DNA of 64,000 nt, taken from Terriglobia bacterium. GTDB taxonomy: Bacteria > Acidobacteriota > Terriglobia > Terriglobales > Acidobacteriaceae. This document shows positions 50,583-56,660 of the stretch, in pieces. Under the pieces are notes generated by a model that saw only the letters and a program-made list of their open reading frames with translations, did not search any database and was not told the origin of the DNA. The stretch lies in the NCBI GenBank assembly GCA_032252755.1, contig JAVUPY010000073.1:1-64000 (forward strand). The letters are read 5' to 3'. Every line of letters starts with the position of its first letter. The first letter of the stretch is position 1. Both the position numbers and the translations under genes were made by a program.

Positions 50583-53270
50583 GTGAACAAGTCTGATGGC
50601 AGTAATGGGAACGAGGCCGTGGGTCTTGAGGTGGTGGAGACCCGTGAGTGGCTGGATTCGTTAGATTACGTCCTGCAGAATGAGGGCGCCGAGCGCGCCG
50701 GGCGTCTGCTGCAGCAGTTGGAATTGCATACGGCCCAGAGCGGCTTCCGGATGCCGTTTACGGCGACAACGCCGTATACGAACACGATTCCGCCCGATAA
50801 GCAGCCACCGTTTCCGGGAAGCCAGGAGCTGGAACGCCGCATCAAGAGCCTGGTTCGATGGAACGCGCTGGCGATGGTGATGCGGGCGAACAAGAAATCC
50901 GAGGGCATTGGCGGCCACATTTCCACTTATGCCTCCGCGGCAACTCTCTACGAAGTCGGCTTCAATCATTTTTTCCGAGCGAAAACTGAGGATGGCGATC
51001 GCGACCTGGTTTATTTCCAGGGACACGCGTCGCCGGGTATGTACTCGCGGGCGTTCCTGGAAGGTCGGCTCTCGAAGGAAAAGTTGGAGAATTTCCGTCG
51101 CGAACTGGCTCAGGGTGGTGGGTTGTCGTCATATCCGCACCCTTGGCTGATGCCGGATTTCTGGGAGTTCCCGACGGTTTCGATGGGACTGGGGCCGATC
51201 CAGGCGATCTACCAGGCGCGGTTCAACCGCTATCTCGAGAATCGCGGCCTGAAGAAGGGAACGAGCGGGAAAGTCTGGGCGTTCCTCGGCGACGGCGAGA
51301 CGGATGAACCTGAGGCGCTGGGCGCGATTTCGCTGGCGGCACGGGAGAAGCTCGACAACCTCATCTTTGTTATCAACTGCAACCTTCAACGGCTGGATGG
51401 GCCGGTGCGCGGCAACGGCAAAATCATCCAGGAACTGGAAGCGAGCTTCCGCGGAACCGGCTGGAATGTGATCAAGGTCATCTGGGGCAGCGATTGGGAT
51501 GCGCTGCTGGCGAAGGATCGCGAGGGCCTGCTGGTGAAGCGCATGGGCGAGGTCTGCGACGGACAATATCAGAAATACTTTGTCGAGAGCGGCGCCTACT
51601 TCCGCGAGAACTTCTTCGGCACCGATCCTCGACTGCTGAAGATGGTGGAGCACCTCAGCGACGAGCAACTAGAGAAGATGCGACTGGGTGGACACGACCC
51701 ACTCAAGGTCTATGCGGCGTACAAGGCGGCTACAGATCACAAGGGATCGCCGACGGTGATTCTCGCCAAGACGATTAAAGGTTACGGGCTGGGCGAGAGC
51801 GGCGAAGGCAAGAACATCACGCACCAGCAGAAGAAGATCAATGACGAAGAGCTGGCGCTGTTCCGCTCGCGATTTGGGATTCCGATTAAGGACGAAGAGC
51901 TGCACGGTGCTCCGTTCTATCGGCCGCCGGAAGACAGCCTGGAAATCCAGTACATGCAGGATCGGCGGAAGCAACTGGGCGGGTACATGCCGGCGCGAAA
52001 GGTTGTGGCGCCGAAGCTGGAGCCAGTGAGCGAAGAGGTATTCGAGGAGTTCTACAAGGGGACGGAGGGACGCAAGGTTTCGACGACGATGGTGTTCGTG
52101 CGCATGCTATCGAAGATGCTACGCGACCCGCAAGTCGGAAAGCTGGTGGTGCCGATCGTTCCCGACGAAGCGCGCACGTTCGGCATGGAAGCGATGTTCC
52201 GGCAGGTGGGAATTTATTCGAGCGTCGGCCAGCTTTACGAGCCGGTCGACATGGACACGCTTCTTTATTACAAGGAGTCGAAGGACGGGCAGATCCTGGA
52301 AGAAGGCATTACGGAAGCGGGATCGATGTCGTCGTTCATTGCCGCCGGCACTTCATATGCCAACCACGGGATCAATACGATTCCGTTCTTTATTTATTAC
52401 TCGATGTTCGGGATGCAGCGGGTGGGCGACCTGGTGTGGGCGGCGGGCGATATGCGCTGCCGCGGCTTCATGCTGGGCGGAACGTCGGGACGCACGACGC
52501 TGAACGGCGAAGGACTACAGCACCAGGACGGCAACAGTCACCTGCTGGCGTATCCGGTGCCGAACCTGGTTGCATACGATCCGGCGTTTGCATATGAGCT
52601 GGCGGTGATCATCCAGGATGGCATTCGGCGGATGTATGTGGAGCAGGAGCCGGTCTTCTATTACCTGACGGTGATGAACGAGCCCTGGGAGATGCCGGCG
52701 ATGCCCGACGGTTCGCGCGAAGGCATTCTGAAAGGGATGTACCTGTTCCAGAAATCCGAAAAAAAGGATGCGAAGCTGCGGGCGAAGTTGCTGGGCAGCG
52801 GTGCGATGATGCAGTCGGTGATGGAGGCACAGAAGATCCTGGAAGAGAAGTACGGGGTGGCTGCGGACATTTACAGTGTGACCAGCTATAAATGCCTGTA
52901 CATCGACGGGATTTCGACCGAGCGCTGGAACATGCTGCATCCGGGGGAGAAAGAGCGGTTGCCATATGTGACGCAGATCCTGGGCGGAGATGACGGCGTG
53001 GTTGTCGCGGCATCTGACTATGTGAAGATGCTGCCGGAGTCGATTTCAAAGTGGGTGCCGGGAAAGATGATTTCGCTCGGGACGGACGGCTTTGGGCGGA
53101 GCGAGTCGCGCGCCGCTCTGCGAGACTTCTTCGAGGTGGATGCGAAGCACATTGTGCTGGCGACACTTTCGGCGCTGATGAGGGACGGCAAGGTGAAGGC
53201 TGACGTAGTGAAGAAAGCAATCCAGGATGTTGGGATCAATCCCGAGAAGCCGCACCCGGTGGTGTCCTAG
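50583..53270 (+). CDS. aceE: pyruvate dehydrogenase E1 component (homodimeric type)
   Basis: 895 residues from a GTG, with GGTGAGG about 10 bases upstream. E. coli-type E1: decarboxylates pyruvate with thiamine diphosphate and acetylates the lipoyl domains of AceF. The ThDP motif runs from GDGETDEPEAL to NCNLQRLDGPV (about residues 238-278). GHISTYASAATLYEVGFNHFF and PVDMDTLLYYKESKDGQILEEGITEAGSM are conserved. The stop TAG overlaps the first possible start of aceF, giving a tight operon. Confidence 0.96.
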   Translation: MNKSDGSNGNEAVGLEVVETREWLDSLDYVLQNEGAERAGRLLQQLELHTAQSGFRMPFTATTPYTNTIPPDKQPPFPGSQELERRIKSLVRWNALAMVMRANKKSEGIGGHISTYASAATLYEVGFNHFFRAKTEDGDRDLVYFQGHASPGMYSRAFLEGRLSKEKLENFRRELAQGGGLSSYPHPWLMPDFWEFPTVSMGLGPIQAIYQARFNRYLENRGLKKGTSGKVWAFLGDGETDEPEALGAISLAAREKLDNLIFVINCNLQRLDGPVRGNGKIIQELEASFRGTGWNVIKVIWGSDWDALLAKDREGLLVKRMGEVCDGQYQKYFVESGAYFRENFFGTDPRLLKMVEHLSDEQLEKMRLGGHDPLKVYAAYKAATDHKGSPTVILAKTIKGYGLGESGEGKNITHQQKKINDEELALFRSRFGIPIKDEELHGAPFYRPPEDSLEIQYMQDRRKQLGGYMPARKVVAPKLEPVSEEVFEEFYKGTEGRKVSTTMVFVRMLSKMLRDPQVGKLVVPIVPDEARTFGMEAMFRQVGIYSSVGQLYEPVDMDTLLYYKESKDGQILEEGITEAGSMSSFIAAGTSYANHGINTIPFFIYYSMFGMQRVGDLVWAAGDMRCRGFMLGGTSGRTTLNGEGLQHQDGNSHLLAYPVPNLVAYDPAFAYELAVIIQDGIRRMYVEQEPVFYYLTVMNEPWEMPAMPDGSREGILKGMYLFQKSEKKDAKLRAKLLGSGAMMQSVMEAQKILEEKYGVAADIYSVTSYKCLYIDGISTERWNMLHPGEKERLPYVTQILGGDDGVVVAASDYVKMLPESISKWVPGKMISLGTDGFGRSESRAALRDFFEVDAKHIVLATLSALMRDGKVKADVVKKAIQDVGINPEKPHPVVS

Positions 53271-53284
53271 TGAAAGGAACCTCA

Positions 53285-55063
53285 GTGGCAATTGAATTCA
53301 AGTTACCGGAACTGGGCGAGAACATTGAGCAGGGCGATTTGGTAAGAGTGATGGTCAAGCCCGGGGACAATGTTTCCGAGGGACAGCCGGTGATCGAGTT
53401 AGAAACCGATAAGGCGGTGATCGAAGTGCCGTCGTCGGTTGTGGGCACCGTTAAGGAAATTGCGGTGAAGGCGGGCCAGAAGTTGAAAGTGGGCCAAACG
53501 ATTTTCACAGTTGAGGGAGATGAGGCCGGGGCGGCGGTAGAAGAGAACAAAGCGGGACCGAAGAAAGATATCCCGCGGACTGAGCCTGTGGGTGCCCGGC
53601 CGAGGGCAGCTGAGCCTGCAAAAGCAGAGGCTGGGCCTACAAAAACAGAGCCGAGGCCGGAGGCGATTGCGCCGGCGGTTCCGGCTAGCGGTGGCAAAGG
53701 AGCCACGGCGCTTGAGTTCAAGTTGCCGGAACTGGGCGAGAACATTGTTCAGGGAGATGTGGTTCGCGTTGCCGTAAAGCCGGGTGACACAATCAGCGAC
53801 GGGCAGACGTTGATCGAACTGGAGACGGATAAGGCTGTGGTGGAAGTGCCGTCGACAGTGTCTGGGACCGTGAAGGAAGTTCTGGTTCGTGAGGGGCAGA
53901 AGGCGAAGGTTGGGCAGGTCATCCTGACATTGCGAGAGGGTGCTGCGACGACCACACCGCCGGCTGAAAAGAAGGTAGAGGATCGAGCCGCACAGGACAC
54001 GAGCAGCGCGGAGATGGCGCGCGCGAGTTACAACATTGCGCGTGCGGCCGAGGGAAAAACCGAAGCGCAGGCGTTCCCGCGCGATACGCGGCAGGAACCG
54101 GCGCATGCAATTGTAGCGTCGCAGGTGGTGAAGAGTGCGGGGGCGGAGCATCGTCCGCCTGTGCCGGCGTCGCCTTCGGTTCGTCGGCTGGCGCGCGAGA
54201 TCGGTGTCGATATCTACAACGTGCAGGGAACGGGGCCGAACGGCAGGATCTCCGAGGCCGACGTCAAGAATCACGCGAAAGCGGTGATCACGGCGGCGGC
54301 CGCGGGAGTCGCGGTGCCGGGTGTGCGTCCGGCGGTGAAGTTGCCGGACTTCAGCAAGTGGGGACCGGTCGAGAAGGTCCCGATGCGGGCGATCCGGCGG
54401 AAGACGGCCGAGCACCTCGCGGAAGCATGGACGACGATTCCGCACGTTACGCAGCACGACAAAGCCGACATCACCGAATTGGAAGAGCTGCGGAAGAAGT
54501 ACTCGTCGCGCGCGGAACTTGCCGGCGGCAAGATGACGGTGACAGCGATTGCGCTGAAGGTAGTCGCTTCGGCGCTGAAGGTGTTCCCGCAGTTCAACGC
54601 CTCGGTCGACATGGCGGGTGAAGAGATTGTTTATAAGCGCTACATACATCTTGGCGTGGCGGTCGATACGGATCGCGGACTGCTGGTGCCGGTGATTCGG
54701 AACGTCGATGAGAAGAACATCACCGAGTTGGCGGCCGAGCTTTCGCAACTTTCAGTGAAGGCGAAGAACAAGACGTTGAAGCCAGAAGAGATGGAAGGCG
54801 GCACGTTCACGATTACGAATCTGGGCGGCATCGGCGGAACGTACTTCACGCCGATCGTGAACCATCCGGAAGTTGCGATCCTCGGGATGTCGCGTTCGCG
54901 GATTGAGCCTTGTTGGGTGAATGACAAGTTTGAGCCCAGATTGATGCTGCCGCTCTCGCTCTCGTACGATCACAGGTTGATCGATGGCGCGGACGCGGCA
55001 CGGTTCCTGCGCTGGGTGGTGGAAGCGCTGGAGCAGCCGTTCTTACTTTCGGTACAGGGATAG
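53285..55063 (+). CDS. aceF: dihydrolipoyl acetyltransferase (E2)
   Basis: 592 residues from the GTG at 53285, with AAAGGAAC five bases upstream; a GTG overlapping the aceE stop at 53270 would add five residues. Two lipoyl domains with lysines Lys43 and Lys183, both in ELETDKAV, are joined by Ala/Pro-rich linkers. The peripheral E1/E3-binding domain is at about 295-331 (PSVRRLAREIGVDIYNVQGTG). The catalytic acetyltransferase domain occupies about 360-592 with His563 and Asp567 in DHRLIDGADA. Passes acetyl to CoA. Followed after 97 bp by lpdA. Confidence 0.95.
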   Translation: MAIEFKLPELGENIEQGDLVRVMVKPGDNVSEGQPVIELETDKAVIEVPSSVVGTVKEIAVKAGQKLKVGQTIFTVEGDEAGAAVEENKAGPKKDIPRTEPVGARPRAAEPAKAEAGPTKTEPRPEAIAPAVPASGGKGATALEFKLPELGENIVQGDVVRVAVKPGDTISDGQTLIELETDKAVVEVPSTVSGTVKEVLVREGQKAKVGQVILTLREGAATTTPPAEKKVEDRAAQDTSSAEMARASYNIARAAEGKTEAQAFPRDTRQEPAHAIVASQVVKSAGAEHRPPVPASPSVRRLAREIGVDIYNVQGTGPNGRISEADVKNHAKAVITAAAAGVAVPGVRPAVKLPDFSKWGPVEKVPMRAIRRKTAEHLAEAWTTIPHVTQHDKADITELEELRKKYSSRAELAGGKMTVTAIALKVVASALKVFPQFNASVDMAGEEIVYKRYIHLGVAVDTDRGLLVPVIRNVDEKNITELAAELSQLSVKAKNKTLKPEEMEGGTFTITNLGGIGGTYFTPIVNHPEVAILGMSRSRIEPCWVNDKFEPRLMLPLSLSYDHRLIDGADAARFLRWVVEALEQPFLLSVQG

Positions 55064-55080
55064 CGGGAAATACGGGATAA

Positions 55081-55145
55081 GGGTACCGGGTTCCAGGTAC
55101 CGGGAAGAACGTACCCGGTACCCGGCACCTGGCACCCGGTACCCA
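55081..55145. repeat. heptad repeat forming a 24-bp inverted repeat between aceF and lpdA
   Basis: Left arm 55081-55104 (units GGGTACC, GGGTTCC) and right arm 55121-55144 (units GCACCTG, GCACCCG) are reverse complements at 22 of 24 positions with a 16-nt loop. Units are 7 bp, and five follow each other in strict register at 55111-55145. It fills the 97-bp gap between aceF and lpdA and ends 15 bases before the lpdA ATG, with no stronger ribosome site visible than AGAAAA. Confidence 0.9.
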
Positions 55146-55160
55146 TTTCGAGAAAACTAC

Positions 55161-56570
55161 ATGGCAAATACGAATCTGAAGGTTGCAGTCATGGGCGGCG
55201 GGCCGGGTGGGTACGCCGCCGCTTTTCTTGCGGCTGACCTTGGAATGCAGGTCACGCTGATCGATCCGGAGAAGAATCCGGGGGGAGTTTGTCTTTATCG
55301 CGGATGCATTCCGTCGAAGGCGTTGCTGCACGTAGCGGCGATGATCGAAGAAGCGAAGCACATTTCGAACATGGGCATCGATTTCGGAGCTCCGAAAATC
55401 GATGTCACTCGCCTGCGCACCTTCAAAGAGAACGTTGTGAACAAGCTGACCGGCGGTCTTGGGCAGATCGCGAAGATGCGCAAGGTAACCTACATCCAGG
55501 GAACCGCGAGCTTCGTCAATTCGAACACGCTGAAGGTGGAGAAGACGGCGGGCGGTTCGGAGAACCTGACGTTCGACAAGATCGTCATAGCGACCGGTTC
55601 GCGGCCGGCGGTGATTCCGACCTTTCCGAAGAGCGCGCGGGTGTGGGATTCAAGCGGGGCATTAAACCTCCCGGACGTGCCGAAGAGCTTGCTAGTCGTC
55701 GGCGGCGGGTATATTGGATTGGAACTTGGGTCCGTCTACGCTGCGCTCGGGTCAAAAGTCTCGGTGGTTGAAATGTTATCGGGATTGTTGCCTGGCGCGG
55801 ATCGCGATCTCGTGTTGCCGCTGCACAAGCGACTGGAGAAGCAGTTTGAGGCGATCATGGTGAACACCAAGGTCGCGTCGATGAAGGAAGAGAAGAACGG
55901 CGTACACGTCACCTTCGATGGCGATGTGAAGGAGAAGGAGAAGACGTACGACCGCGTGCTGGTGTCTGTTGGCCGCACGCCGAATTCGCAGGTGCCGGGA
56001 CTGGAGAACACGAAAGTTCAACTCGACGGCAAGTTCATCAAGATCAACAAGCAACTACAGACCACCGATCCTTCGATCTACGCGATTGGCGATGTTGCGG
56101 GCGAGCCGATGTTGGCACACAAGGCCATGCACGAGGGTCGAACGGCAGTGGAGCACATTGCCGGGCACAAAGTCGCGTTCGAGCCGTACGCGATTCCGGC
56201 AGTAGTATTCACGGACCCGGAGATCGCATGGGCTGGCCTGACGCAGACGCAGGCGGAGAAGGAAGGCCGCGAGGTTTCGATTGCAAAGTTCCCGTGGGCG
56301 GCTTCGGGACGCGCGGTAACGCTGGATCGGACGGAAGGTGTGACGAAGCTGATCATCGATCCGAAGTCGGAGCGCGTACTTGGCGTCGGAATCACCGGGC
56401 CGGGAGCGGGGGACATGATTGCGGAGGGTGTGCTGGGGATCGAGATGGGCGCGACGGCAAAGGACATCGGGCTCACGATCCATCCGCATCCTACGCTTTC
56501 AGAGACCGTGATGGAAGCCGCGGAAGTGTTCTACGGAACGAGCACGGATACGTATCGGCCAAAGCGGTAA
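55161..56570 (+). CDS. lpdA: dihydrolipoyl dehydrogenase (E3)
   Basis: 469 residues from the ATG at 55161 (MANTNLKVAV). FAD-binding GGGPGGYAAA at 12-21. Redox-active disulfide Cys44/Cys49 in CLYRGCIPSK. NAD-binding GGGYIGLELG near 180. The C-terminal base His-Pro-His-Pro-Thr-Leu-Ser-Glu carries the His/Glu pair. Reoxidises the dihydrolipoyl groups of AceF and makes NADH. Third gene of the PDH operon. Confidence 0.95.
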   Translation: MANTNLKVAVMGGGPGGYAAAFLAADLGMQVTLIDPEKNPGGVCLYRGCIPSKALLHVAAMIEEAKHISNMGIDFGAPKIDVTRLRTFKENVVNKLTGGLGQIAKMRKVTYIQGTASFVNSNTLKVEKTAGGSENLTFDKIVIATGSRPAVIPTFPKSARVWDSSGALNLPDVPKSLLVVGGGYIGLELGSVYAALGSKVSVVEMLSGLLPGADRDLVLPLHKRLEKQFEAIMVNTKVASMKEEKNGVHVTFDGDVKEKEKTYDRVLVSVGRTPNSQVPGLENTKVQLDGKFIKINKQLQTTDPSIYAIGDVAGEPMLAHKAMHEGRTAVEHIAGHKVAFEPYAIPAVVFTDPEIAWAGLTQTQAEKEGREVSIAKFPWAASGRAVTLDRTEGVTKLIIDPKSERVLGVGITGPGAGDMIAEGVLGIEMGATAKDIGLTIHPHPTLSETVMEAAEVFYGTSTDTYRPKR

Positions 56571-56587
56571 GTCGCTTTCAGGTTTAG

Positions 56588-56621
56588 ACCGGTACTCCTT
56601 TTGGGGTGCCGGTTTTGTTTT
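56588..56621 (+). terminator. intrinsic terminator after lpdA
   Basis: ACCGGTACTCC (56588-56598) pairs fully with GGGGTGCCGGT (56603-56613) allowing two G-U pairs, around TTTT, followed by TTTGTTTT. Classic rho-independent end of the PDH operon. Confidence 0.9.
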
Positions 56622-56636
56622 AGGCGAAGATCTCAC

Positions 56637-56660
56637 CACAGAGGCACAGAGGCACAGAGA
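56637..56660. repeat. 3 x 8-bp CACAGAGG array
   Basis: CACAGAGG, CACAGAGG, CACAGAGA. Same unit as the inverted pair at 9685-9778. Downstream of the lpdA terminator. Confidence 0.85.

Follow-up and report, generated by a model that had tools for sequence, protein, structure and literature searches.

Heptad repeats in other bacteria

Repeats built of seven-nucleotide units include the cyanobacterial STRR heptamers and the heptads of the cyanobacterial tRNA-Leu intron. In many bacterial genomes, heptads are reported as the most frequent class among longer simple repeats (PMC4679880, PMC4692102). The Xanthomonas GGGAATC heptads are reported to lie between aligned genes, usually as four units; sense-strand copies stand within 50 bp of a stop codon, antisense-strand copies upstream of a start codon. 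They occupy 183–186 sites, and their inverted pairs number 70 and 75 in the two genomes counted (PMC4692102). The same paper reports that transcription in Xanthomonas begins or ends at quadruplex-capable heptads more frequently than at control repeats, and mentions heptad repeats in Calothrix (PMC4692102).

The family analysed here, with the unit GGTRCCR, resembles the Xanthomonas family so described in its tandem heptads, with four units commonest, in its strand rule and in its inverted pairs; it differs in that GGGAATC is G-quadruplex capable, whereas GGTRCCR is a palindrome plus one base that forms a duplex stem. The likeness to other reported systems is partial. Nostoc GGGGA(C/T)T heptads are also intergenic and tandem, one of them inside the pec operon, but have another unit and few reported inverted pairs (PMC4692102). 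The GGGACCG element of Geobacter metallireducens consists of four tandem heptads of a similar unit and is GC-rich and present in many copies between genes; it differs in being reported at 49 places, some within genes and some between, and is termed a putative regulatory element (PMC2700814). The TAACTGA heptads of Beggiatoaceae are intergenic and tandem and stand beside gene edges, but are nearly all direct (one indirect among 169 sets) and lie mostly just upstream of starts (PMC4679880). REPIN and REP doublets share the inverted arrangement and the extragenic hairpins, but are linked to RAYT genes (PMC3116915, PMC3733652), a link that GGTRCCR lacks at five of six Y1_Tnp loci. In our literature search, which left subscription journals mostly outside, neither the GGTRCCR family nor a paper on heptad repeats in Acidobacteria or on the tRNA-Leu intron heptads of cyanobacteria was met. 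Heptads of this sort are already known from Xanthomonas, Nostoc, Geobacter and Beggiatoaceae; what is newer is an apparent turnover of the unit with kept orientation, often with pairing of the arrays.

Structure of the element between aceF and lpdA

The window, that is, the whole stretch of 64,000 nucleotides that was analysed, contains a pyruvate dehydrogenase operon with the following features.

50583..53270, plus strand: aceE, pyruvate dehydrogenase E1 (open reading frame; PF17831, E 7.7e-101)
53270..55063, plus strand: aceF, E2 with two lipoyl domains (open reading frame; PF00198, PF00364, PF02817)
55081..55144, plus strand: 24-nt inverted repeat of both arrays (22/24), predicted RNA hairpin
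55082..55102, plus strand: stop-side array of 3 heptads, sense-strand GGTRCCR, 18 nt past the aceF stop
55116..55143, minus strand: start-side array of 4 heptads, antisense-strand GGTRCCR, 17 nt ahead of the lpdA start
55150..55160, plus strand: weak ribosome-site-like GAG and spacer before lpdA, adjoining the stem foot
55161..56570, plus strand: lpdA, dihydrolipoamide dehydrogenase E3 (open reading frame, internal ATG start; PF07992, PF02852)
56586..56615, plus strand: terminator-like stem of 13 pairs with a T-rich tail after lpdA (terminator scan)

Pfam domains in all three genes bear out the E1, E2 and E3 identities, and the internal ATG start of lpdA is backed by orthologues. The aceE–aceF junction is as tight as the first-pass annotation had described, with the aceE stop TAG (53268–53270) and the aceF GTG at 53270 overlapping by one base. 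In all, 97 bases separate the aceF stop (55061–55063) from the lpdA ATG at 55161. The inverted repeat reported in this gap is present as described, its arms 55081–55104 and 55121–55144 being complementary at 22 of 24 positions. It had been placed at 55081–55145, of which the start is correct, but the right arm ends one base earlier, at 55144; the hairpin is close to lpdA as claimed, at 16 bases from the right arm to the ATG instead of 17.

Both arms have the proposed heptad build and consist of GGTRCCR-type units; the left array reads GGTACCG GGTTCCA GGTACCG, and the right array reads CGGTACC CGGCACC TGGCACC CGGTACC. All four occurrences of GGTACCGGG in the window, where 0.15 are expected, fall within the hairpin element, and Tandem Repeats Finder (TRF) assigns period 7 to 55111–55144. 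GGTACC is its own reverse complement, so that whichever way two GGTACC arrays are oriented they score as a near inverted repeat. That the arms are truly inverted is visible in the seventh base, mostly a purine on the left and a pyrimidine on the right, and in the GGCACC units on the right; read in the opposite orientation, mismatches rise from 1 to 4 in the left array and from 0 to 6 in the right. The heptad inverted repeat in the E2–E3 gap is real and beyond chance.

The RNA of 55060–55170 has a predicted fold of -49.6 kcal/mol (z -4.26), a stability that no shuffle out of 200 equals, in agreement with the strong hairpin proposed earlier. The foot of the stem adjoins the GAG, presumably the lpdA ribosome site, where base 55150 is predicted to be paired at 0.92 and the mean over 55150–55156 is 0.15. 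The lpdA ATG itself is predicted to pair with other bases, so further structure besides the stem is predicted nearby. When folded, the hairpin leaves 33 unpaired bases in the gap, inside the range of the hairpin-free gaps of relatives, short examples of which measure 18, 38 and 47 nt. The window has no match above the gathering threshold of any family in Rfam 15.

A GC-rich stem of such stability could act as an intrinsic terminator or attenuator between aceF and lpdA. The sequence 3' of the stem, however, is ATTTCGAGAAAAC and holds no U-tract, and a terminator scan of 10 kb on both strands gave no terminator-like site at the 55.1-kb hairpin but one after lpdA; the scan returned 8 sites against 8.8 expected from shuffles, so the post-lpdA site is a scan hit and no proof. 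We regard termination at the hairpin as highly improbable. Since the 55.1-kb position carries no terminator-like site and the region after lpdA carries one, the hairpin most likely lies inside one transcript. An array of CACAGAGG with period 8 is present at 56637–56659, between lpdA and the next gene; arrays of this type form hairpins in the aceF–lpdA gap of some relatives.

The GGTRCCR family and its strand rule

Heptads of the GGTRCCR type are dispersed in this genome. The two-unit pattern GGTRCCNGGTRCC has 68 matches in 5.39 Mb against 3 for a reversed control, and BLAST with the element returned 43 places at E up to 10, a count that covers the query as well and in which one site may appear again through its opposite strand. 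In the 24 regions fetched around the BLAST places, 30 oriented arrays were called, none of them inside a gene, with four units the commonest number (16/30) and a range from 2 to 6; units and lengths vary between copies. Most arrays are single, with three to six units, and some form inverted pairs, such as that at C32:123703–123807. One two-unit match, in region L066, lies inside a predicted gene and does not count among the arrays; L065 and L066 gave no array at the calling setting used. The dispersed heptads share with the Xanthomonas type the tandem 7-nt units, the many copies and the mainly noncoding location, and membership of the aceF–lpdA element in the GGTRCCR class is likely.

The family was seen in one genome only, the class- and family-level comparison genomes including none of its own genus. 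A three-unit scan of the class matched 8 of 299 genomes; among the matches listed outside the own genome the units are GGTGCC-only throughout, and a few other genomes match the reversed control. A four-unit GGTRCC scan over a wider genome set gave at least 114 stretches, many of them in Streptomyces and other actinobacteria, and was not used.

Array orientation follows the nearest gene edge. Of the 24 arrays within 100 nt of an edge, 23 conform to a rule by which sense-strand GGTRCCR follows stops and antisense-strand GGTRCCR precedes starts, with C25:63094 as the sole misfit and six more arrays farther from any edge. A fair coin gives at most one misfit among 24 with p 1.5e-6. On recount, C51:79018 proved to be an orientation tie and C70:229596 a doubtful array with 4 mismatches; without both, 21 of 22 arrays agree (about 5e-6). 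Five arrays belong to a multicopy segment, and counting this segment once gives 17/18 (about 7e-5). Gene edges were set in the 24 fetched regions with a simple codon-based gene finder. Both halves of the aceF–lpdA element follow the rule, and it is because the two arrays stand in opposite orientation in one short operon gap that they pair as a 24-nt stem.

Inverted doublets that form hairpins are also typical of REP and REPIN elements moved by a RAYT (Y1) transposase, and the genome contains six Y1_Tnp genes, one of them about 1.1 kb from an array. A REP or REPIN origin is nevertheless very unlikely: GGTRCC heptads adjoin none of five of the six loci, the array near the remaining one follows a different gene, 5 nt from its stop, and the number of units ranges from 2 to 6. 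By eye, and within 55060–55165 only, a GTAG/CGTC tag is found at neither foot; a minus-strand GTAG occurs outside the stem, at 55157–55160.

Comparison of orthologous aceF–lpdA gaps

The first-pass annotation had proposed that the hairpin could lower or separate E3 expression. A search of 300 genomes of the family at E up to 1e-150 gave 85 matches to an E3 of the lpdA type, spread over 84 genomes. Of the 83 loci inspected out of these 85, 77 have a clear aceF–lpdA gap and six have none, and the distance from the aceF stop to the E3 core ranges from 23 to 611 nt (median 132). With a strong inverted repeat defined by a score of 11 or more, a level passed by 1 of 231 shuffled gaps, 20 of the 77 gaps carry one and 57 carry none above the threshold. 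Period-7 arms at the 0.6 level occur only in the gap of the window itself (1/77); in the gap of L252 period 7 is best, but reaches only 0.50. The other 19 inverted repeats are of other kinds, several of them unrelated, among them TGTCATCCTGAGCGAAGCG in L209, L210 and L211 and ACCACGAAGGACACGAAGG in L233, with a close form in L256.

The repeats of unrelated kinds in these 20 gaps could mean repeated recruitment of hairpins to uncouple E3 from E1 and E2, and the strong stem with its foot at the presumed lpdA ribosome site would suit such a role. On the E. coli aceEF–lpd transcript, RNase III is reported to act and to affect PDH activity, though its site is upstream of aceE (PMC5371410). Selection of the hairpin to set a lower E3 level is nevertheless unlikely. 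Clear heptad arms are missing from 76 of the 77 gaps and a strong inverted repeat from 57, heptad arrays of the family to which the element belongs stand beside many unrelated genes across the genome, and the rpoB–rpoC gaps described below are richer in inverted repeats (12/15 and 24/60) and carry heptad hairpins much more often. The supporting premise that E3 is shared by other complexes was not established, as contig C14 carries another E3-like gene, whose two adjoining pieces are 36% and 40% identical. What survives of the proposal is a possible, partial effect of the predicted hairpin on lpdA expression.

Heptad hairpins in other operon gaps

As controls, the gaps of conserved gene pairs were taken from 30 of the E3-bearing genomes. 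For rpoB–rpoC, a gap was obtained from 15 of 30 loci, with strong inverted repeats in 12/15 and period-7 arms in 11/15 (shuffled, 0/45). For infB–ylxP (11 of 27 loci), inverted repeats were present in 3/11, all with period 7 (shuffled, 0/30). The result for rplL–rpoB (8 of 30 loci) is weak, with 2/8 gaps positive, both with period 7, and 1 of 24 shuffles passing too. The motif search extracted no groES–groEL locus (0/27), and this control adds nothing. A stricter threshold gave 14/77 for aceF–lpdA, 6/15 for rpoB–rpoC and 2/8 and 1/11 for the other two control pairs, in the same direction. In a second rpoB–rpoC set of 60 further genomes, hand-picked from 117 with a match, strong inverted repeats were found in 24/60 (0/60 when shuffled once) and period 7 at 0.6 or above in 11/60.

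The rpoB–rpoC gaps (L277–L300, L363–L422) often contain a long hairpin that begins almost directly behind the rpoB stop, a few bases away at most. The heptad units of these hairpins vary by genome, for example TCAGTTC, CCAGTGG, TAGCTCC and GTCGTTG, with GTACC-containing units in L378 and L396; the rpoB–rpoC gap of the own genome (L360) has heptads of a unit other than GGTRCCR. No Rfam family was matched in 11 rpoB loci. When all gaps are pooled, 33 hairpins have arms of at least 14 nt and period 7 as their best period. Their stop side carries CAGT or CGGT in 19, with 11 ties and 3 in the opposite orientation, namely those of the window, L378 and L396, all with GTACC-type units; orientation looks constant within each unit type, as judged from these sequences.

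Arms of the same rpoB–rpoC gap match each other better than arms of different genomes (mean 13.5 against 8.5 in 16 gaps), a difference reached by none of 10,000 permutations in a test that carries kinship, since related genomes share units. In 4 of the 16 gaps (own genome, L279, L284 and L285), the within-genome score is below the mean cross score. Because these four, the own genome included, pair no better within the genome, the arms may pair only incidentally.

The motif NAYYGRN, derived from published heptads as a general description of them, matched 10 of 23 arrays against 3.1 expected from permuted units; it was dropped, having been chosen after the examples were seen, and one published heptad fails it.

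Origin and possible role of the hairpin

The element is probably an oriented pair of GGTRCCR arrays that makes an intercistronic hairpin in the RNA, with an effect that is modest at most. Slippage or copying at gene edges may be what creates and alters its heptads, and the sense-strand array behind the aceF stop would have come to share a short gap with the antisense-strand array before the lpdA start. The stem is presumably transcribed within the aceE–aceF–lpdA mRNA without terminating it. If active, the hairpin might serve as an RNase III type site, for which a stem of this length is suited, or protect the 3' end of aceEF, and its influence on lpdA would be modest; an RNA-level effect of such size is possible. 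Its folding away, which would leave the 33 unpaired bases, is a possible reason for its tolerance in the operon.

Neutral slippage debris without any effect at the RNA level, tolerated because it is folded away, would account for the absence of this form from 76 of 77 orthologous gaps and for the differences in units and lengths between copies. Pure debris predicts neither the strand rule nor the arm orientation shared in other genera, and we consider this explanation possible, if somewhat doubtful, and favour the oriented array pair.

A wider proposal, which we hold tentatively and with distinct doubt, is that the heptad units edging gaps are replaced from genome to genome across the family while their orientation to stop and start and the pairing of the arms persist, so that a directional gene-end process, perhaps together with selection on the RNA stems, builds the hairpins in concert. 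If this is true, the aceF–lpdA hairpin would be one product of the directional process, and the heptads of Xanthomonas, Geobacter and Nostoc further ones. A family with a palindromic unit and a Xanthomonas-like strand rule, together with operon gaps in which different heptads retain their orientation and in many cases their pairing, makes the question of slippage noise accessible to countable tests of placement, orientation and covariation. The pyruvate dehydrogenase case warns against building a regulatory story on a single hairpin.

Other repeats and open reading frames

A segment of about 1 kb is repeated in L057, L058, L061, L068 and L072 and in part in L074, with roughly 78–94% identity. 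Its open frame would encode a protein bearing the motif HIKTNGIKCGSPALRHHTLCYFH, for which a Pfam search of the L072 copy returned no family; in L061, L068 and L072, a heptad array is close ahead of this frame. A different heptad array, with GAGAACT/GGGAACC units, is found at 188–230, 8 nt past the stop of a minus-strand frame (239–1087) that resembles an M48 (HtpX-type) protease by its HELGH motif.

Among the relatives, a long palindrome unrelated to heptads, TGTCATCC(T/C)GAGCGAAGCGA, fills the aceF–lpdA gap of L209, L210, L211 and L230. Six aceF–lpdA gaps (L205, L207, L216, L221, L235 and L239) display a small-open-frame pattern, and the frame of L207, the one examined of the six, is SnoaL-like (E 1.7e-11).
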